This document shows positions 6,978 through 51,180 of a stretch of 64,000 bases of DNA, in pieces. Numbering within the stretch: the stretch's first letter is position 1; every line of letters begins with the position of its first letter. Under the pieces are notes generated by a model that made no database searches, was not told the DNA's origin, and saw nothing but the letters and a program-made list of their open reading frames with translations. This DNA is from Planctomycetales bacterium (GTDB taxonomy: Bacteria; Planctomycetota; Planctomycetia; Planctomycetales; Planctomycetaceae). A program made the translations under genes and the position numbers. The stretch covers positions 62,001 to 126,000 of the forward strand of contig JAPLOA010000098.1 of the NCBI GenBank assembly GCA_026400835.1, given 5' to 3'.

Positions 6978-7643
6978 TTAGGAGGCTGGTGAAAGCGGCT
7001 TGGAGTAATGCAGATACTCAAGCGGAGCTAACTTAGCTTTCACGCCGTTGTTGGAGATATACCGCCGGAGGTGGAGAAACTGCTCTTCTGATCTCACGAG
7101 ATGATCGAAACCGTCCTGTTGCCAAAACCGACCTTTCGTCCTGAGTTCTCGATTGATCTTGTGGGCGGTGAAGTGTTTCCACGAATCACACTGAGCCAGC
7201 ATTGCCGTTTCGTTCAAGAACGCGACCAGCAAGTGGACATGATTTGGCATAACGATGAAGTCGAGAAGCTCGTATCGATCACCGTCAAAATGATGCAAAC
7301 TGTTCCCCACGATTTCTGCAATCTCTCGGCAACGCAGAACGCACGCTCCATGACATGCATCAAGATCGTCGTGCCAGCGTTTCGAGAAATGGTCATAGAA
7401 CTCCTCTTGAACCGATTTGTCCAGTTGCTGAAGCTGGTGTCGCCAATTGGAAGCGGTGGGATTGATCCCGTGTAATCGCAGCCAGCGTCCTCGCTCGCTC
7501 CGCCATCGTTCCACGACGTCCAGCGGAATTGAATCGTCCGTGCGAAATGTCAGAAAACAGACCACTCCAGGCTGAAGCCAATGAGGCAATCGCCGCTCAA
7601 TGACGGTGTACTCTGCGTTGCGATCGAAGAAATGCAGTTCCAT
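6978..7643 (-). CDS. REP-associated tyrosine transposase (RAYT, Y1_Tnp/IS200-like)
   Basis: A single-strand DNA transposase-like HUH enzyme of 221 aa. ATG 7643 is used because GGAG lies 3 nt upstream; the frame is open further into a repeat copy. The HUH histidines are visible in IVMPNHVHLLV near residues 132-142. The C-terminal RAYT signature follows: WKHFTAHKIN, then GRFWQQDGFDHLVRS, then RYISNNGVKA, which supplies the candidate nucleophilic tyrosine. Family knowledge: RAYTs bind and mobilise REP/BIME hairpins. Context fits exactly, since the gene is bracketed by four copies of one palindromic unit. The usual IHNP-like tail reads NNGV here, a mild deviation. It appears intact. Confidence 0.9.
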   Translation of the reverse strand: MELHFFDRNAEYTVIERRLPHWLQPGVVCFLTFRTDDSIPLDVVERWRSERGRWLRLHGINPTASNWRHQLQQLDKSVQEEFYDHFSKRWHDDLDACHGACVLRCREIAEIVGNSLHHFDGDRYELLDFIVMPNHVHLLVAFLNETAMLAQCDSWKHFTAHKINRELRTKGRFWQQDGFDHLVRSEEQFLHLRRYISNNGVKAKLAPLEYLHYSKPLSPAS

Positions 7644-26822: not shown

Positions 26823-28124
26823 TCAGTGACCTGTTACAGGGGTCCCGGAGGCGACCGCATTAATCTTTGGCGGATGGAAGAAGATCGCCATTGCCAATGA
26901 CGCAACAATGGCAGCGGCCATCGGCACAAGGAACAAACCGTGGAAGTCAATCACTCCGTCTTTGGTGTAGACTTCCTGCATCAGATAAGGGCAAACCGTA
27001 TTCGCGACCAATGCGCCTACGCCAAGAATCATCACATTAAACAACCCCTGTGCGCTGGAACGTACGTCCTTCGGAAAATGCTCGTCCACGAAAATGTAGA
27101 CCGTCGCGAAGAAAAACGCGTAGCAGACACCATGGACAATCTGGACAACGATGATCAGCTCTTTCTGAGGCATGAAGGAGTAAACAGCGAATCTCAGGGC
27201 ATGCCCCAGAACTCCCACGATCATCGTGGTCCGCCAGCCCAGAGCCTTCAGCGTAGCCCCCAGCACAAACATGGTCAGAATTTCTGCGATCTGTCCGATA
27301 CTCATCACGGGCATCACCCAGTTGCCGGGAATGCCAACTTCTTTGCTGGAGAGAAATGTCCCCGTCCAGTTGAAGTAACAGTTGTGGACGAACGAATCGA
27401 TAAAGGCCACGATCCACAGGATCAGCACAAAAGGATGCTTTAACAGTTTGGCAGCCTGCAACCAGGCTAATGACTGAGCTTCTCCTTCGACCGCAGCTTT
27501 CGGAGGAGTGTGCGGCAGTGTCAGGCTGAATGCGGCCAGCACCAATGACGCCACTCCGGCCACGATGTAGGTCCACTTCGTGGCATCCTGAAGCGGTTCG
27601 CCTGTCAGCCCGTTCGCCAGAACTGCTCCCAGCCATCCCACAAAACCTTCTGGTTTGGCCGCATCGACCTTCGCCCAGTCCACAAGAATGAAAGTGAACG
27701 GCCAGGCGGCAAAAATCCAGCCAATGGTTCCGCCCATTCGCACGATCCCGAACTCCTTTTGAGCATCCTTCACATTAGCGAAGGCAATCGAGTTCGTAAT
27801 CGAGATCGTCGGGACGTAAAGCAAACAGTGCAGCGACATCAGGCCAAAGAATGGCCAGAACGATTTCGTAAATGCCAGCCCCAGAATTGCGAGCCCGCCA
27901 ACCAGATGACTGAAGGCAAGGAAACGCTCAGCCGAGAAATTTCGGTCGGCAAATTGGTTACTGAAGAACATTCCGATAATGGAAGCGATTGGAAACGCGT
28001 TCAAAATCCAGGACTGCTGAGCTGTTGTAAAACCGAGCCCTGGCAGGTAACCAAAAATAAGTGGCAACCACGCCCCCCAAATGAAGAACTCCAGAAACAT
28101 CATGGCAAAGAGGCGAGTTTTCAT
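26823..28124 (-). CDS. MFS permease of the nucleoside:H+ symporter type
   Basis: 433 aa from ATG 28124; the upstream frame to 28259 lacks a helix-like start. The N-terminus MKTRLFAMMFLEFFIWGAW is the signature of the Nuc_H_symport (NupG/XapB) MFS family, with about 12 helices. WGAW and FGIVRMGGTIGW are conserved. It is predicted to import nucleosides or related sugars. Planctomycete members are often annotated simply as MFS transporters, so substrate is uncertain. It ends 17 bp before the hybrid kinase start on the same strand, which suggests co-transcription. Confidence 0.87.
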   Translation of the reverse strand: MKTRLFAMMFLEFFIWGAWLPLIFGYLPGLGFTTAQQSWILNAFPIASIIGMFFSNQFADRNFSAERFLAFSHLVGGLAILGLAFTKSFWPFFGLMSLHCLLYVPTISITNSIAFANVKDAQKEFGIVRMGGTIGWIFAAWPFTFILVDWAKVDAAKPEGFVGWLGAVLANGLTGEPLQDATKWTYIVAGVASLVLAAFSLTLPHTPPKAAVEGEAQSLAWLQAAKLLKHPFVLILWIVAFIDSFVHNCYFNWTGTFLSSKEVGIPGNWVMPVMSIGQIAEILTMFVLGATLKALGWRTTMIVGVLGHALRFAVYSFMPQKELIIVVQIVHGVCYAFFFATVYIFVDEHFPKDVRSSAQGLFNVMILGVGALVANTVCPYLMQEVYTKDGVIDFHGLFLVPMAAAIVASLAMAIFFHPPKINAVASGTPVTGH

Positions 28125-28321
28125 AGTGTTCTTCAATAATCCTTGCAAAAAAGTGTCTGCGGGATAAGGCGGACCTGAATCCAACGATGTCGGATGATGA
28201 CAGCCTGATTTACCGAGGGCAACCGTCTGCCACACGTTCTTTGACAGGACTGACGGCATTTTTGCCGTTCAGTTGAATCTTTACCGCCCTTGCCGATTCC
28301 TGTTAGACTTCGATACTCAGT

Positions 28322-28400
28322 TTTTATTCAGTGCGCGGTCACAATTGAACTATTGCTCCAGATGCTGTTCCCGCGAACACCTGGTCTCAATGTCATGCCG
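28322..28400 (+). repeat. Crossing-stem repeat, copy 1
   Basis: A copy of the ~78-bp element also found at 45345, 46645 (minus) and 49987. Shared blocks: TATTCA, then GCGCGG (28333-28338), ATTGA (28344-28348), a 21-nt variable middle, CCCGCG (28370-28375) and TCAAT (28387-28391). GCGCGG can pair with CCCGCG and ATTGA with TCAAT, in crossing order. It lies 57 nt upstream of the DUF6263-like gene, in sense. The rest of the 332-bp divergent gap 28125-28456 has no other feature I recognise. Confidence 0.7.
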
Positions 28401-28456
28401 TGCATGGAATTACGATCTCCCGAATGGATTCCCGGGACTCCAGGAGTTGCTGAATC

Positions 28457-29725
28457 ATGGATCGATTCCGTCATCAAAAGCGTCTTTTGCTGCTGTCCGG
28501 TGCAGGTTTTCTGTTGACCGGCTGCGGTTCAACGGAACCTGCTCCCGCCGATGCAGACACCGCCCTGATCGATGAACTGCTGAGCTCCGGTGGTGATTCC
28601 ACCGCCAAACTCAAGGAGCCTGCTGAACCCGTCTACACCGAAGACAATCACACAGATCACACTCAGACCGTCAGCCGCACTCGACCCGCAGACCGTCGCT
28701 CCGGCCAATCCAGTGCTCGTGGTGATCGTCTGGAGCTGCGTCTCCAGAAAGGCGACCGGTTTCCGCTGGTCAAAACGGTCCATCAGACGTTGGTTCAGAG
28801 ATCCGAGCAGGCTCCGGCCCTCGCTGAAACCCGGCTGGAGCTCACACTGGTGATCACCGTTGAAGAGGTCCGCGACGATGCGATCCTGCTGGGAGTCCGT
28901 TATTCCCGAGTCAACTATGCTCACGACGTGGCCGGACAGCAACTGGCTTATGACTCATCGACTCACGCCGGAGCCGTTCCATGGGATGCTCTGCCATACG
29001 CAGGAATGATTAACAATGGCTTCTCGTTCTGGCTCGGTCGTGATAACAGCATTCGCGAAATGGTAGGCTATAAGGAGTTTCTGGAGCGTTGCGTGGCAGA
29101 AGTTCCTCTCGAACGACGAGAAACGCTGCTCTCAGAAATCAGCAATCGATTCGGTGACGACGGCGTGGCCAACTTTGTGGATGATTCCATCGGCCTCCTT
29201 CCCTACGACGCCACTGTCGATCCCGATGCGGCCACTCGAGTCCTGCCTGGTGACGTCTGGACTCGCGAACGTCGTCTGATGCAGCCGGTTCCGGTTCAAT
29301 TGACTTCCACTTATCGCCTTACAGAAATCAACGATACAACGGCAGAAATTGATATTACTGGCCGCATCGCCTCTGGTGATGCTGCAGCCTCGAACACAGC
29401 GGGGCGATTGAGAATTTCCGGAGGACACAGCCTTGGTCGCTGCATTGTCGACCGAGCGACCGGACTTCCACTGGAGATGAATCTGACCCGTTACATCACG
29501 ATGAAACTGACCACGGCTGACGAAAAAGAAGTCGTGCAGGAAAAAACCATCGTGACCACAATTCGAGCGTTCCCGGAAACTCGAGGCCCGGTTGCTGCCG
29601 CCCCTGTTTCCACTCCGATTCAGCGCGTCTCAGGATTCAACGAGCCTCAGAATCCACAGTCATCATCAGCGCAGCCCAACTCCAACACTGGCCGCCGCGC
29701 GGTTCGAGCCGTGTATCCGGAATAG
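28457..29725 (+). CDS. DUF6263-like lipoprotein
   Basis: 422 aa from ATG 28457, with CAGGAG about 10 nt upstream. The lipobox is LLTGC at about residue 22, so the protein is lipid-anchored. A low-complexity acidic linker (to about residue 90) leads into a beta-rich domain beginning LELRLQKGDRFPLVKTV, which resembles the planctomycete DUF6263 family. A Pro/Ser/Gln-rich tail follows. The function is unknown. Convergent with the next lipoprotein; the 143-bp gap contains a repeated GAACTGACGCTG. Confidence 0.75.
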   Translation: MDRFRHQKRLLLLSGAGFLLTGCGSTEPAPADADTALIDELLSSGGDSTAKLKEPAEPVYTEDNHTDHTQTVSRTRPADRRSGQSSARGDRLELRLQKGDRFPLVKTVHQTLVQRSEQAPALAETRLELTLVITVEEVRDDAILLGVRYSRVNYAHDVAGQQLAYDSSTHAGAVPWDALPYAGMINNGFSFWLGRDNSIREMVGYKEFLERCVAEVPLERRETLLSEISNRFGDDGVANFVDDSIGLLPYDATVDPDAATRVLPGDVWTRERRLMQPVPVQLTSTYRLTEINDTTAEIDITGRIASGDAAASNTAGRLRISGGHSLGRCIVDRATGLPLEMNLTRYITMKLTTADEKEVVQEKTIVTTIRAFPETRGPVAAAPVSTPIQRVSGFNEPQNPQSSSAQPNSNTGRRAVRAVYPE

Positions 29726-43053: not shown

Positions 43054-44145
43054 TCAGTGAATGGCCGCAGCGTTGGGATTGGAGACATTCGTCGGCTGTG
43101 GTAAGGAGTCCGCGGCGGGCGGAGCCGGAAGAACCGGAGGCATGTCTGCAGGAAAGGTCTCCGGAACTGTGACTGGTGGAACATTCTCGGGGATGTTCAT
43201 AGGTGTCACCGGTGCCGTTGACAGGGGAGGCGACGTTGACGGGGGAGGCGACGTTGAAGATCCGGACGATGTGGGGCATGGAGAAGCAGGCGGACAGGCG
43301 CCATTTTTGAATAGTTTTTTCCAACTGTCACGCCACGACTTTTCTGGTTTCGCTGGCGTCACCATGAGTGAGGTTGAAGCATAGTTGTACCAGGCTGCGA
43401 GATCATTGGCGATTTCATGGATCAGGGCTTGCGGGCTATTGTGTCCTGGTGCAGGCTGACATGCGGGCTCACGGCAGAACAGTGCCTTCTTCAAACTGAA
43501 TTTTTTACCTTCGCACTCATATTCTTCCCCCGACCAGGTCGCCGTTGTTGCGAAGACCGGATCCTGAGACTGTCCATCAAGGACCTTAACCTCCAGCGTA
43601 GCGCGAATTGGATAGTATGGGCGATACTCAATCACGCGGACAACCAGAATCTGGTCAACGATCGGCAGTGATTCCGAATGATACATGGGATTGGGTGGCA
43701 ATTGCGGTGGGAGGCCATCCTGCGGAGATGTGAACGCGACAGAAATAATGCCATCAGAAGATTGCTGCGGAAACTGAGGTACGGCAGATCGCGGTTGAAG
43801 CGAAACCAGCGGTTCCACGGCCAAAGCCGCTGAGGACAATTGCAGTTCACGCATCAACACGGTTCCCAGATTCGATGCAAAGTGGCTGTGGACCGGGTCG
43901 ATGCCGCTCTGCATATTCAGTCCCATCCTGAGACCAGGAGTGGATACAGGAGGTGGCACATAGTTGCGATCAAATTTTTCATGAGCGAGAGGGTTCGTGG
44001 TGAATCTTGTGGACACATTGGGGCCACACAATTCATTCGCCGACGGTCCGGCATGACAACCGACCAGCAACGCGAGACTCGCCAGGAGACTTCTTCGGAA
44101 GACTCCTGTTGCCTGATGGCTTGAATAGCGAGAGTTCGAAATCAC
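43054..44145 (-). CDS. Flagellar-block lipoprotein with Pro/Ser-rich tail
   Basis: 363 aa, lipobox LVGC near residue 30. A central domain (about 95-215) has LPIVDQILVVRVIEYRPYYP, then ATLEVKVLDGQSQDPVFATT, a beta pattern reminiscent of envelope flagellar accessory proteins, which is only a guess. The C-terminus is a Pro/Thr/Ser run with an 18-bp tandem repeat in the DNA (43217-43234 and 43235-43252). Its start overlaps the stop of the preceding gene by 4 bp (ATGA), so the two are coupled. Confidence 0.72.
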   Translation of the reverse strand: MISNSRYSSHQATGVFRRSLLASLALLVGCHAGPSANELCGPNVSTRFTTNPLAHEKFDRNYVPPPVSTPGLRMGLNMQSGIDPVHSHFASNLGTVLMRELQLSSAALAVEPLVSLQPRSAVPQFPQQSSDGIISVAFTSPQDGLPPQLPPNPMYHSESLPIVDQILVVRVIEYRPYYPIRATLEVKVLDGQSQDPVFATTATWSGEEYECEGKKFSLKKALFCREPACQPAPGHNSPQALIHEIANDLAAWYNYASTSLMVTPAKPEKSWRDSWKKLFKNGACPPASPCPTSSGSSTSPPPSTSPPLSTAPVTPMNIPENVPPVTVPETFPADMPPVLPAPPAADSLPQPTNVSNPNAAAIH

Positions 44146-45200
44146 AAAGATTGTCCGGCTGCGGACTGTGGAACTGGTCGCAGTGGATTCGTACCACGCG
44201 ATGGTTTGGCGGCGGGATTTGACTTGTTGGCGGAGCCTGTCTGAGAAACGACTTCCCCAACAATCTCTGACAGCGAATCCAGCTCTTCAAGATATCGCTG
44301 GTCGGCCACTTCAGCTCGCCGACGAAGTTGTTCGTTGTCCAGGAGCAACTGCCTTTGTTGTTCCGCCATTTGCTGCATGGTCGTTTTTGCCTTCAACGTA
44401 TCAAGCTGAAGTTCACTTAATTTTTGATTCATCTCGTGAACTTGCTTCTCGCACTCCGCTATCTTCTCGGGAGGCGAGATTGCGTCGGTAAGGTATCCGT
44501 GGTTGGGAACCATTCCGGGAGGACACACGACTGCCGGTAATGACCCTGAATGGGCCTGAGCCCGAAACGCTGAAGCGGGTGCTGCTGTCAGCTCTGGCCC
44601 ACTGAGAGCCTTTGAGCCCGGGAGTCCAGCTTGAACTGTCGCTGGTGGCAACCCGGGCGTCGTCAATTCAGATTGCCCGGGGACAAAGGCAGTCGCAGCG
44701 GGGATCGCCTGAGCAGTCTGCCCTTGTGCCCGACTTGTCGCAGCGAGGTCTGCAACCGGCGGCATGACCTCAGCAACTTGTTGCGATGTCTGTTGCTGAA
44801 CCGGCTGCTGTAGAGTAGCCGAAGCTTGCTGGGGCACAGCCGAGAGATCCACAGGCTGCTGCACATATGGCTGCTGTGCGACCGGCTGTTGCTGCATTGC
44901 TGGCTGCTGCTGTGTTCCATTATTGACCGGAGCGAAGTTCGCCACTGCTTGAGTCGCTGGCAGCGGAGCGACGGGTAGAGCGGTCAATGCATCAGCGCGA
45001 GGCGGCATTGAGGGAGCCGCACAGTCAGCTTTGGCCATCTCGGGATTGGCTGTCACCGGGGCCGGGAGAACTGGCTGTGCAAGCTTCGACTTACCGAGCA
45101 GATTCTTCGAGAACGCGCAGCCAGTGGAAAGACAGAGGCACAGTGCGATGATCAAGTGCAGCGATTGTGATGTTCTGATTAGGATTGAAGTTTGCGGCAT
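44142..45200 (-). CDS. Coiled-coil, Gln-rich lipoprotein
   Basis: 352 aa from ATG 45200 (GGAAG upstream); the frame is open to 45497 without a leader. Lipobox STGC at about residue 27. Residues 60-200 are low complexity, Gln/Pro/Ala-rich (QQQPAMQQQPVAQQPYVQQP). Residues about 235-325 form a heptad coiled coil (QVHEMNQKLSELQLDTLKA, then QRQLLLDNEQLRRR). Coupled to the next lipoprotein gene by an ATGA overlap. Placement after fliA suggests a flagellar or envelope structural role. Confidence 0.7.
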   Translation of the reverse strand: MPQTSILIRTSQSLHLIIALCLCLSTGCAFSKNLLGKSKLAQPVLPAPVTANPEMAKADCAAPSMPPRADALTALPVAPLPATQAVANFAPVNNGTQQQPAMQQQPVAQQPYVQQPVDLSAVPQQASATLQQPVQQQTSQQVAEVMPPVADLAATSRAQGQTAQAIPAATAFVPGQSELTTPGLPPATVQAGLPGSKALSGPELTAAPASAFRAQAHSGSLPAVVCPPGMVPNHGYLTDAISPPEKIAECEKQVHEMNQKLSELQLDTLKAKTTMQQMAEQQRQLLLDNEQLRRRAEVADQRYLEELDSLSEIVGEVVSQTGSANKSNPAAKPSRGTNPLRPVPQSAAGQSL

Positions 45201-45344
45201 GACCGTCTTCCGTTGCGAATTAAAAACGGAGTCAGCCGCGACACAGGCAATTGGATCACCGTGTCCTGCAGTCATTGCAACTGCTGACAATCGTTCGTTC
45301 ATCACCAGAGACTCCCGAATAACGTCGTTCAGGCACTCCACATG

Positions 45345-45423
45345 TTTATTCACTGCGCGGCCATGATTGAGGTAATGATGGGGATCATATGTCCCGCGAA
45401 CACCCGGACTCAATTTATGCCGC
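45345..45423 (+). repeat. Crossing-stem repeat, copy 2
   Basis: GCGCGG at 45355-45360, ATTGAGG 45366-45372, CCCGCG 45393-45398, CTCAAT 45409-45414. The middle also holds ATGAT-GGGG-ATCAT. It lies between two minus-strand genes, antisense to both. The remainder of the 336-bp gap 45201-45536 shows no other feature. Confidence 0.75.
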
Positions 45424-45536
45424 CCCAGGAATAATGGCTGGAACGCCTGACGAAAAAAGCTTTTACTGACTGAAAGAACTGAGATCGCTCGGGACAAGGT
45501 CAGGGAATGTACCTGTCCCGATTTGGTTCACGTTAG

Positions 45537-45764
45537 TTACTGGAGGGTCACACTGCCGTAAGCACATTCGACGACAGTGACTTCACCACACCCGCAGTGA
45601 ACCATGATTGCAACGACATCACCGGTCTCCGGATCAGTTTGAACGGAGACAGTGGATGGCTCCTTTGAGCAACGAGTTTGTTGTCCTAAGCGAACCGGGG
45701 CTTCACTGAATCGAACCTGCTGGCTTGATAAGACGCGACCTCGAGATGACAGCACGGTACTCAT
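45537..45764 (-). CDS. Small Cys-containing protein downstream of fliA
   Basis: 75 aa from ATG 45764. Unknown family. The first half is Ser/Arg/Gln-rich. The second half is a compact beta-like segment with three Cys (MVHCGCGEVTVVECAYG), which could bind a metal. It lies in line with the flagellar block, 129 bp after fliA. The composition and frame fit a real gene, but the small size keeps confidence moderate. Confidence 0.6.
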   Translation of the reverse strand: MSTVLSSRGRVLSSQQVRFSEAPVRLGQQTRCSKEPSTVSVQTDPETGDVVAIMVHCGCGEVTVVECAYGSVTLQ

Positions 45765-45893
45765 GTTTCAATCCGTTCCAGTTTCAATTCAGGGATGAAT
45801 TTTCAGGGTCGGCTATCAACTGGCTGTATTCAAAACCACACGTTGCCAGGAGAGATGCCGCAAAGAGTTTGGCTGCGGAAGCTGTCGTGTTGC

Positions 45894-46613
45894 TCAGCCT
45901 GTTTTCCGTCTGATGATTGACTTGAGCTGTAATTCTGCGGCTGCCAGAAGTCGAGACACGCGGGATTCCGACAGTCCCAGCACCTGTCCGATTTCCTTCA
46001 TTCGCATGTCTTCCATGTGATACATCGTGACCGCGAGCCGCATCTTTTTAGGGAGTTGTTCGATCGCATCGGCCAAAGCCATTCTTTCTTCGGCCCGGTG
46101 GGATCCTGCGTCGACCTGAGAATGGCGATGATCGGGTGTGGGCAGTTCTCCCAATTCATCCGCCCAGTTTTCGGGACGAGTTAACCGCATGGCGGTCAGG
46201 CAGTCTTCCACTTCGCGGACCGATAGACCGGTGGCATCTGACAGTTTCTCCGGAGTCAGGGGAGGTGCCATGTGAACGGATGCGTCTCTAATCAGAGCCC
46301 AGCTCTGGAGAATCGCCTGCGGGACCGGACAGTTGCGTCGCAGTTCATCCAGAATCGCACCGCGGATTCGCTGGTAAGCGAACGTTGTAAACGAGGCACC
46401 TCGATCCGGATCGTACTGTCCTGCGGCTTCCACAAGCCCCAGAATGCCAGCCGATTCAAGGTTTTCGTTATCAACATATTCCGGCAGTGATCCCAGAAGT
46501 TTTCCGAGGATGTGACGAACGTAAGAAAGATGTTCGATGATCAGACGATCTCGAAGATCCATCGTACAGACTTTATTGTACGCTTTTACAGCGGAATTCA
46601 TGCGAGTGCTCAT
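45894..46613 (-). CDS. fliA: Flagellar sigma factor FliA/WhiG (sigma-28)
   Basis: 239 aa. Region 2: RLIIEHLSYVRHILGKL, then LESAGILGLVEAAGQYDPDRGASFTTFAYQRIRGAI split over the -10 recognition helix. Region 3 follows (LTPEKLSDATGLSVREVEDC). Region 4 has LPKKMRLAVTMYHMEDMRM and the HTH LGLSESRVSRLLA. This is the FliA signature, directing late flagellar promoters. ATG 46613 or 46601 may be used. Copy 3 of the crossing-stem repeat lies 32 nt upstream in sense orientation. Confidence 0.92.
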   Translation of the reverse strand: MSTRMNSAVKAYNKVCTMDLRDRLIIEHLSYVRHILGKLLGSLPEYVDNENLESAGILGLVEAAGQYDPDRGASFTTFAYQRIRGAILDELRRNCPVPQAILQSWALIRDASVHMAPPLTPEKLSDATGLSVREVEDCLTAMRLTRPENWADELGELPTPDHRHSQVDAGSHRAEERMALADAIEQLPKKMRLAVTMYHMEDMRMKEIGQVLGLSESRVSRLLAAAELQLKSIIRRKTG

Positions 46614-46644
46614 TTGGATGATTTCGCAGTCTTATTCTTGGCAC

Positions 46645-46721
46645 AATTTGAAATGAGGCCGGGTGTGCGCGGGACATACCCTTGAGTGGTTAGCCTCAAT
46701 CGTGACCGCGGACTGAATAGT
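46645..46721 (-). repeat. Crossing-stem repeat, copy 3 (sense, upstream of fliA)
   Basis: Read on the minus strand: TATTCA (46719-46714), CCGCGG (46711-46706), ATTGAGG (46700-46694), CCCGCG (46673-46668), CCTCATT (46658-46652). Spacing from TATTCA to CCCGCG is identical to copy 2. Confidence 0.75.
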
Positions 46722-46764
46722 TGCTTCGTACCACTCGGAATTCTGGCCCAACGAATTCTGAGAT

Positions 46765-46989
46765 TTACTCAGAACGATTTTCAGCGCCGGGGTCTGCCAT
46801 CGTCTGCAGCAGTCTCACAAACCCGCGGATGCATATGGCAGAGATGATCGCGGCCGTGAAGGCACGCAGCACGATCTCTGCTGGTCCGGTGTTGCGAATT
46901 ATGCCGACGATCATCACCAAACAACTCACAAGCAGTCCGCAGGCCCGGCCCCACGGACGTCGATCGAGTATGATTTGATTGATATGCAT
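46765..46989 (-). CDS. Small membrane protein between flhA and fliA
   Basis: 74 aa from ATG 46989. A basic start (ILDRRPWGRA) precedes two hydrophobic helices (LLVSCLVMIVGII and AFTAAIISAICIRGFV). No family recognised. Its in-line position between flhA and fliA and the plausible membrane topology support a real gene. There is no strong ribosome-binding site. Confidence 0.55.
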   Translation of the reverse strand: MHINQIILDRRPWGRACGLLVSCLVMIVGIIRNTGPAEIVLRAFTAAIISAICIRGFVRLLQTMADPGAENRSE

Positions 46990-49268: not shown

Positions 49269-49946
49269 TCAATGAAAACTCAGACTCAGCACTTTGGCGA
49301 TAAGTTGCCAGCCATCGACCAGAACAAACAACAGAATTTTGAACGGTGTAGAGATCACCATTGGCGGCATCATCATCATGCCCAGTGACATGAGAATGAC
49401 TGAAACCACAAGGTCGATGAGAATGAACGGGATGTAGAGACAAAAGCCCATGATGAAGGCGGTCTTGAGTTCGCTGATGACATAGGCCGGGATCAGGACA
49501 TCAAACGGAGTACTCTCGGGACGTTCGATCGTGGTGACGTTGGCCATTCTCGCGAACAGAATGATGTCTGCTTTCCGAGTTTGGCGGATCATGAAGTCGT
49601 GAAGTGCGAAACGACCATTGTTCCAGGCAGCCTGACCGGTAATGGTCTCAGCCAGATAAGGCCGAATTGCTTCCTGTTCAATCTTTGTGAGCGTCGGCCC
49701 CATGACAAACAGAGTCAAAAACAGCGACAGGCCAAGGACAACCTGAGTCGGCGGAATTTCCTGTGTTGAAAGCGCGCGGCGAACGAAGGACAGGACGATC
49801 ACAATCCGAGTGAACGCCGTCATGGTAACGAGTGCTGCAGAAATCAGAGCCATCCCGCCGAGGAACAAGGCAACCTTGATCTGCGGCGAGAGTCCCTGAA
49901 ATGCTTCAGACTCCAGTATTTGTTGAACTGTTTGTGCGGAATCCAT
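49269..49946 (-). CDS. fliP: Flagellar export gate protein FliP
   Basis: 225 aa from ATG 49946; the frame extends to 50132, overlapping fliO. Core export-pore subunit. The family blocks MTAFTRIVIVLSFVRRAL, LFLTLFVMGPTL, AFIMGFCLYIPFILIDLVVS and MMMMPPMVIS are all intact. No separate signal peptide is obvious in the short form (MDSAQTVQQILE), unlike enteric FliP. Confidence 0.93.
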   Translation of the reverse strand: MDSAQTVQQILESEAFQGLSPQIKVALFLGGMALISAALVTMTAFTRIVIVLSFVRRALSTQEIPPTQVVLGLSLFLTLFVMGPTLTKIEQEAIRPYLAETITGQAAWNNGRFALHDFMIRQTRKADIILFARMANVTTIERPESTPFDVLIPAYVISELKTAFIMGFCLYIPFILIDLVVSVILMSLGMMMMPPMVISTPFKILLFVLVDGWQLIAKVLSLSFH

Positions 49947-49986: not shown

Positions 49987-50057
49987 CTTATTCTATACGT
50001 GGCCACTATTGAGGCGATTCTCGATAGGCTATCCCACGAATGATCGGCCTCAATTAA
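49987..50057 (+). repeat. Crossing-stem repeat, copy 4 (diverged)
   Basis: TATTCT, ACGTGG (49997-50002), ATTGAGG (50008-50014), CCCACG (50033-50038), CCTCAAT (50048-50054). The first stem has changed from CGCGG/CCGCG to CGTGG/CCACG, keeping pairing. The 3' end overlaps the fliO stop codon. It lies in the fliO-fliP gap, antisense to both genes. Confidence 0.65.
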
Positions 50058-51180
50058 AACTGTGCGAAGAATCGGTTTGTGTTTCAGAGGCAAGGACGGT
50101 GAGGTCTGTCCGAGCCTTTGCGGGACGTTCATAAATCAATGGCTCATCCGCTTCCGTCAATTCATCCTGAAAAGATGGAGGAGTCAGAACCAGTTGTTTG
50201 ATACCGCCAGCATCGAAGGCTACTAACGCTCGATGTCCAGCCATTTCGATCAGTGACACAGACCGACCCGGTCCGAGTGACAGAGTTTCAATCACGCGTG
50301 ATCGTGATCCAGGGGTTGGGAGCAGGCCACGTTGGCGTTGCCAGCGGCGAACTCCCAGAGCAGCCAAACTGAAGAGGCACAACGCGATCACAATCCACGC
50401 AACAGCTCGCGATAGAACCTGCACAGGACTGGTCTCAATAGCAACTTCGGCCCCGCGTTCCCCGATCGGGGCAGACGCACTCTTTGGTTTGGCATCATCT
50501 CGCAGGTCCAGAAACATGCCGGTATCGGCAGATGATTTGAGAGGCATTGAGATATCAGCAGGCTTTTGCTCAGACGCGGCCGATGGCGTTGGCTGAAGTT
50601 CAGAGATCGTTTCAGACTGACGGAGTGCAGTCAATGAACTACCTCTTGCCGCTGAGTTGCCAGGAGCCGTATCCGATTCTGGTTCCCATGCGGCTTGTTT
50701 GATGGCCGGTGAATTTTCGTCACCGCCGTGCGAGATCTCGCGATCATCAGTTTGATCCGGGACTCTGGTTCCATTGACCGAAGTCGCCGAGCGAGTGGAA
50801 CGGAGCGCAGAGGAACTCTGCTGCGTATTTCGGTGAGATTCGCTGCCGTTGCCATTGGAGCGAACCTGTGTCCGTGCCGTGCGCTGTGGCGTTTGTTCGA
50901 TCTGTTGAGGCTGTTCGATTCCGGCTTGCTGTTCGAGGAATCCCTTGAGCTTTGAATCGATGGCAGATGATTCACCGGCACCTGTTGTCGAACGTCTGCG
51001 GAATTGTCCAGAACCGCTGTGCGACTGCTGGCCCACCGCCGAGGAGGACACAACAGATGAAGCAAGAATTCCAGCGAAAACGACCAGAATCAGCGGCGAT
51101 ACCCATCGCGCACCGGGACGTCGGGTCAGAGTTGAACTCTGTACGCTGGTCGTCGTGGATGCTGATTCGAAAAGCCGCAT
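50050..51180 (-). CDS. fliO: FliO-like flagellar export protein with long periplasmic-type region
   Basis: 376 aa, far longer than typical FliO (about 100-150 aa). An N-terminal hydrophobic leader (WVSPLILVVFAGILA) is followed by ~210 residues of Ser/Gln/Arg-rich low complexity, then a transmembrane helix (VAWIVIALCLFSLAAL) and the FliO cytoplasmic domain (RVIETLSLGPGRSVSLIEM, then ALVAFDAGGIKQLVLTPP). FliO helps assemble the FliP ring, and it directly precedes fliP. The C-terminal domain makes the assignment good; the extension is unexplained. Confidence 0.85.
   Translation of the reverse strand: MRLFESASTTTSVQSSTLTRRPGARWVSPLILVVFAGILASSVVSSSAVGQQSHSGSGQFRRRSTTGAGESSAIDSKLKGFLEQQAGIEQPQQIEQTPQRTARTQVRSNGNGSESHRNTQQSSSALRSTRSATSVNGTRVPDQTDDREISHGGDENSPAIKQAAWEPESDTAPGNSAARGSSLTALRQSETISELQPTPSAASEQKPADISMPLKSSADTGMFLDLRDDAKPKSASAPIGERGAEVAIETSPVQVLSRAVAWIVIALCLFSLAALGVRRWQRQRGLLPTPGSRSRVIETLSLGPGRSVSLIEMAGHRALVAFDAGGIKQLVLTPPSFQDELTEADEPLIYERPAKARTDLTVLASETQTDSSHSFN

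Follow-up and report, generated by a model that had tools for sequence, protein, structure and literature searches.

The imperfect palindrome that recurs in the window (the whole stretch of 64,000 nucleotides analysed here) is, with a probability that we put at roughly 85%, a relic non-autonomous MITE-like element that has no gene and was mobilised in trans by a putative transposase. This reading, which the first-pass annotation had offered alongside that of a protein-binding or RNA module, draws its support from about 105 dispersed copies in the genome, subfamilies among them, a patchy distribution in the genus, a site that is empty in congeners, and related ends in other phyla. Several of the features by which a MITE is recognised were found: the sequence is multicopy, short (89 bp) and non-coding, it has inverted-repeat ends, and the site of one window copy (copy 3 below) is empty in five congeners. 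We propose that a transposase supplied in trans would have recognised ends of the type TATACTYCGCGCGGYCA, that the element would have spread by transposition into intergenic DNA, chiefly in the ancestor that its own species shares with the two nearest relatives, and that the inserted copies would now be inert and mutating at a near-neutral rate. What had been a candidate RNA pseudoknot is removed and replaced by a mobile-element family that can be tested.

The four copies, with the sequence blocks that had been described for them, were found at the places first given. The length of about 78 bp needed correction: alignment with flanks and further copies showed that conservation runs 11-17 nt past the 3' ends originally noted and then stops, giving a true length of 89 bp. 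The consensus is TTATTCTGTGCGCGGCCACGATTGAGGCAATGATCTGAATGATGTATCCCGCGAACACCCGGCCTCAATTCATACCGTGCGAAGAATAA, with a centre of variable length (column counts in the alignment of copies). The scores below come from a covariance model whose 26 training sequences included all four window copies (70.6-87.5 bits).

28324..28412, plus strand: copy 1, 70.6 bits (model positions 1-90 at 28323-28413); its neighbours are a nucleoside-H+-symporter-like gene (26823-28259, minus) and a DUF6263 gene (28457-29725, plus)
45346..45434, plus strand: copy 2, 87.5 bits; within the 5' part of a called but unassigned minus-strand ORF (44142-45497) with a TTG start, its true start uncertain
45346..45360, plus strand: 5' arm of copy 2; family consensus TTATTCTGTGCGCGG, from alignments
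45420..45434, plus strand: 3' arm of copy 2; family consensus CCGTGCRRAGAATAA, from alignments; mostly beyond the 3' end first assigned
46632..46720, minus strand: copy 3, 73.2 bits; precedes a FliA/WhiG-like sigma factor gene (45894-46613, minus) in the sense orientation
49988..50074, plus strand: copy 4, 70.9 bits; antisense, between a fliO-like gene (50050-51180 as called, minus) and fliP (49269-49946 or -50132, minus)

The ORF ends of the fliO-like gene and fliP overlap copy 4, and their starts and frames are uncertain.

A flagellar cluster (FliA/WhiG-like sigma factor, FlhA, FliP, FliO) contains or adjoins copies 2-4, and the first-pass annotation had described the element as concentrated around flagellar genes. 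That proved a local impression, since copies 2-4 are three of about 105, and the element is not specific to flagellar genes. A 15-base core pattern has 49 exact sites in the 7.58-Mb genome, 23 of the first 30 of which were elements by eye. The covariance model was built from 26 copies, 22 of them outside the window, leaving out the partial and diverged L016, and was run on 30 genomes (the own genome, 17 congeners and 12 genomes outside the genus). At E<=0.001 it returned at least 101 matches in the own genome, 104 in sister species G004 and 81 in sister species G015. At least 75 of the own-genome matches were absent from the training set, which excludes chance, and the further copies anticipated from such a search were thereby found; the own-genome count is a minimum, as the search scored 150 of the 2067 candidates from the first look. 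Among the other 15 congeners six gave 1-3 matches, some of them longer relatives of the element, and nine gave none, as did the 12 genomes outside the genus at the same threshold.

A total of 109 matches from 98 sources were aligned and three that were the same palindrome on the opposite strand were dropped, leaving 106 copies. Mean identity is 76% to the consensus and 64% between copies, and subfamilies exist among them. Ten pairs of neighbours lie less than 2.5 kb apart in the own genome, against a random mean of 3.4 and a maximum of 9 in 1000 simulations, and a blind 400-kb sample held no copy, although 105 copies in 7.58 Mb would lead one to expect about 5.5 there; the copies are therefore clustered genome-wide. 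Close neighbours occur on contigs C16, C31, C52, C53, C73 and others.

Of these 106 copies, 98 are intergenic with called genes on either side, six overlap called ORFs and two have no called gene on one side in the stretch examined. The intergenic copies comprise 31 between divergent genes, 59 between codirectional genes and 8 between convergent genes, against length-weighted expectations of 29.9, 56.0 and 12.1 (background of 464 kb, made up of 20 stretches and the window), so that placement among intergenic regions is as random insertion by length predicts. An initial background of element-bearing loci had suggested a divergent excess and a convergent deficit, which vanished with length weighting over the 464 kb. 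Nor is there a sense-strand bias among the codirectional copies (26 sense, 33 antisense).

Both sister species carry copy 3 at the corresponding position (93-95% identity in that region). It is missing from the aligned site in G017, G005, G014, G012 and G011, where the flanking genes are syntenic and 72-78% identical; the intergenic DNA of these five congeners is too diverged for both insertion boundaries to be read. An ortholog of copy 2 is present in G015, and the contigs of G004 end near the site. The empty-site evidence comes from few sites, namely copy 3 and one aligned boundary of a Methylomonas copy. Orthologs were sought among 71 loci of G015 and 73 of G004, and the 32 of 106 copies that have none there cannot be counted as absent, because these loci were chosen for holding elements.

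Comparison of orthologs indicates how the inserted copies evolve. With positions in called ORFs left out, they diverge by 10.0% (G015) and 12.4% (G004), against 5.6% and 9.3% for flanking intergenic DNA in the same alignments and 10.1% and 15.4% for third codon positions (home-made gene calls); the element thus outpaces the intergenic DNA around it and evolves at, or close to, the synonymous rate. For first and second codon positions the divergence is 1.7% and 2.8%, and element positions inside called ORFs by 11.8% and 15.9%. Rates vary among sites (p=4e-4), and sites that are conserved between paralogs tend to be the slower ones (rho -0.54), so that weak constraint is conceivable; the loop core, though well conserved, changes by 10.4% between orthologs, against a mean of 11.0%.

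Given an imperfect palindrome that is intergenic, occurs in both orientations and has some positions slower than average, one might consider a family of DNA-binding sites for a regulator or nucleoid protein, maintained in promoters. We regard this as most improbable: upstream enrichment is absent when intergenic length is taken into account, the copies diverge more than the intergenic DNA that flanks them, and 15 of the 17 congeners have few or no copies.

The other functional proposal was an RNA module with crossing, pseudoknot-like stems, and here the full 3' end matters. In the consensus the outer pairing joins the 5' arm TTATTCTGTGCGCGG to the 3' end, and within it ATTGAGGC is paired to GCCTCAAT; the minimum-energy fold is one nested hairpin, and the 89-bp element is accordingly predicted to be a single long, nested, imperfect hairpin with a variable tip. 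GCGCGG has two possible partners: the 3' arm, which gives nesting, and the CCCGCG of the loop, which gives a crossing. The crossing pairing, of 5 bp and drawing on bases of the same 5' arm, is a partial alternative to the nested hairpin. The crossing order first described arose because most of the 3' arm fell outside the coordinates first used.

Were the element a structured RNA (an H-type pseudoknot that works as a small RNA or, in cis, within leader sequences), compensatory base changes would be expected in its stems. In the 26 copies both structures are far more complementary than their slid versions, and the crossing blocks are paired in 94.6% of cells, but pairing and covariation measured against shuffles of these copies showed no excess for either the nested or the crossing stems. 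When covariation was ranked over the 106 copies, the 27 structural pairs fell between 359th and 3151st of 3741 column pairs; the strongest covarying columns, which include 29, 33, 34, 43, 71, 73, 74, 78, 79 and 82 and lie mostly in the centre and 3' part, look subfamily-diagnostic.

Double changes between orthologs (112 comparisons of 74 elements, with the expectation taken from site rates) likewise revealed no compensation in the hairpin arms (16 observed, 20.9 expected) or in the ATTGAG/CTCAAT stem (10 observed, 9.5 expected). For these stems the first-pass annotation's own ground for refutation, variation that is not compensated, therefore applies. The crossing stem gave 11 comparisons with double changes against 4.5 expected, five of which keep the pair; they lie in eight elements, three of which appear in both species comparisons. 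Pair-to-pair changes were seen in window copy 4, L128 and L101, that of copy 4 being a clean compensatory change (CGTGG/CCACG, against CGCGG/CCGCG in both sister species). This excess speaks against the mobile-element reading, yet 304 of 3003 possible 5-bp helices match or beat the crossing stem in pair-keeping double changes. The lack of sense bias and a divergence above that of flanking intergenic DNA also count against a structured RNA, as does the fold of example elements from other lineages, a long nested hairpin around a different centre. Rfam gave no relevant match in the whole window at gathering scores and no relevant weak match in E-value mode over 45200-46850, which holds copies 2 and 3. 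Taken together, we consider the RNA module very unlikely.

The variation in the arms is better read as that of a mobile palindrome. Among ten example elements from several lineages, two were cut off-register and not used, and in the other eight the arms are complementary at 18-22 of 26 positions. Arm position 5, for example, is T on both arms in the consensus of the own genome and A on both in the G014, G001, G033, N. communis and Methylomonas examples. Between lineages, then, the two arms differ in concert; concerted arms between lineages, with no such concert within one genome, are the pattern expected of a mobile palindrome whose copies decay after insertion.

Congeners, other planctomycetes, Nitrosomonas communis and Methylomonas harbour elements whose ends are related (TATACTYCGCGCGGYCA) but whose lengths and centres differ. 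The model matches in G011, G014 and G001 include longer elements that have ends TTATACTCCGCGCGGCCA and a different centre. With as many as 2 mismatches allowed, the end pattern TTATACTCCGCGCGGYCA occurs 91 times in G001, 31 times in G011 and 30 times in G014, and its reversed-pattern control not once in any of them. With as many as 3, the pattern and its control give 98 against 2 in a Methylomonas MAG, 13 against 2 in N. communis, 15 against 3 in G032 and 24 against 4 in G033, whereas in G034 the pattern is no commoner than its control (11 vs 9). A scan of species-representative genomes for the frame that these versions have in common found 28 stretches, 26 of them in planctomycete records; 14 of the 28 stand under the record title Candidatus Kuenenia, and the remaining two belong to Nitrosomonas communis Nm44 and the Methylomonas MAG, one each. 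Viral contigs gave no match to the exact frame pattern, plasmids none to the Methylomonas element and phages none to the element of the own genome, and a search of literature text with five 14-base versions of the ends found no paper.

The Methylomonas MAG, 354-166, holds 40-50 copies of about 164 bp, at least about 40 of which are 90-99% identical to one of them; L444:1354-1517 and 2642-2805 are examples, and one copy has shrunk to a 34-bp palindrome (L434:1484-1517). From three genomes of that genus (G031, G035, G036) 27 distinct copies were located by the end pattern at up to 4 mismatches. They start with TATAC (one with CATAC) and end with GTATA (four with one change), five are 149, 34, 163, 171 and 158 bp long and the rest 164 bp, and their flanks are unrelated by eye beyond a weak A/T preference. 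Four copies of 106 bp were read in N. communis, and that at L379:1449-1554 of Nm44 sits between two ABC-transporter permease genes, pstC- and pstA-like by eye.

These junctions bear on the kind of enzyme that would have moved the element. No target duplication was detected at the junctions of 103 own-genome copies, which show a weakly purine-rich left and pyrimidine-rich right flank, and none beyond a possible TA was seen in these or in the 27 Methylomonas copies, where a possible TA target merges with the element ends. A TA-targeting DDE transposase would agree with the symmetry of the ends and with the absence of any longer duplication, and IS630 elements are associated with TA targets; we give about even odds to a cut-and-paste enzyme of this kind.

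None of the transposase loci inspected (PF13358, PF01797) has convincing ends on both sides. Six genomes were profile-searched for PF13358 (IS630-type): N. communis gave 75 matches and the three Methylomonas genomes, which may be incomplete, none, and at the 30 loci inspected outside Methylomonas, most of them in N. communis, the only end pairs have 5 mismatches in 17 (L481, L491). A relic of an IS630-type gene in G001 appears to interrupt a related element (L485:1275-1420) and not to mobilise it.

Alternatively, the elements could have moved as single-stranded hairpins by means of a Y1 (HUH) tyrosine transposase, in the manner of TIRYT/TIRtrons or REPINs, and not by a DDE enzyme. This is possible, though we doubt it. 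The long single hairpin and the lack of a detectable target duplication would suit it, and Y1 genes (PF01797) are present in 12 of the 18 genomes of the genus and in Methylomonas and Nitrosomonas genomes, but each of the 19 Y1 matches in the own genome is farther than 5 kb from any listed copy, and the symmetrical ends, with no GTAG-like tag noticed, also argue against it. Thirty Y1 loci of the genus had no model match and no ends on both sides (L365 and L370 have one weak end each). Ends on both sides were equally missing at 30 loci from four other genomes, among which are all six that the Methylomonas MAG has (L522 has one weak end). The window itself contains a Y1 transposase-like PF01797 match at 7047-7280 on the minus strand (E 1e-6), about 21 kb from the nearest listed window copy.

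REPINs, or REP doublets, which occur with RAYT, consist of two inverted arms with a variable spacer and form hairpins of about 100 nt. Our element has the same architecture and a hairpin of about that size, but differs in lacking a noticeable GTAG-type tag and, in the own genome, a Y1 match less than 5 kb from a listed copy. Bacterial MITE-like intergenic palindromes include ERIC, Correia/NEMIS and RUP. Like them, the present family is about 90-170 bp long, has inverted-repeat ends, is mainly intergenic, reaches about 100 copies, carries no gene, folds as a long hairpin and possibly targets TA. Unlike them, it has a different end sequence, no autonomous partner among the PF13358 and PF01797 loci inspected, and related ends that, around different centres, recur in planctomycetes, a gammaproteobacterium and a betaproteobacterium. 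For TIRtrons/TIRYT, the account of Di Nocera et al. 2013 (PMC3733652) describes families of terminal inverted repeats beside Y1 genes, moderately abundant in several species, and in both respects (such families, and Y1 genes in the same genomes) our element resembles them. It differs in that no examined Y1 gene has the element's ends on both sides, and the GGGGWSAS motif given in that account is not evident by eye in those ends. The element is best placed with the MITE-like palindromes and, at the loci tested, fails the association that defines the REP/RAYT and TIRtron systems.

The planctomycete, Nitrosomonas and Methylomonas versions have the frame in common and not the centre. A bolder, and in our judgement rather unlikely, extension of the MITE-like reading is a class of hairpin mobile elements across phyla, in which a conserved frame, formed by TATACTYCGCGCGGYCA ends together with TGAG or something like it, would carry unrelated palindromic centres exchanged at the exposed tip, moved by an undescribed transposase. 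We also weighed whether the centres might be REPs native to their hosts, a notion that the motif positions weakened: at the planctomycete loci examined REPa lies near frame ends only (13 of 13), and REPb does so in 12 of 14.

Related ends common to planctomycetes and proteobacteria point to a widespread transposase not yet linked to its MITEs. Since the Methylomonas copies are young, being mostly 90-99% identical, their transposase may still be present. Within the same genus, four loci of G035 (L467, L470, L473 and L476) have a centre like that of the 164-bp element between outer arms TTTAACAACTG..CAGTTGTTAAA, and there are further partial matches.
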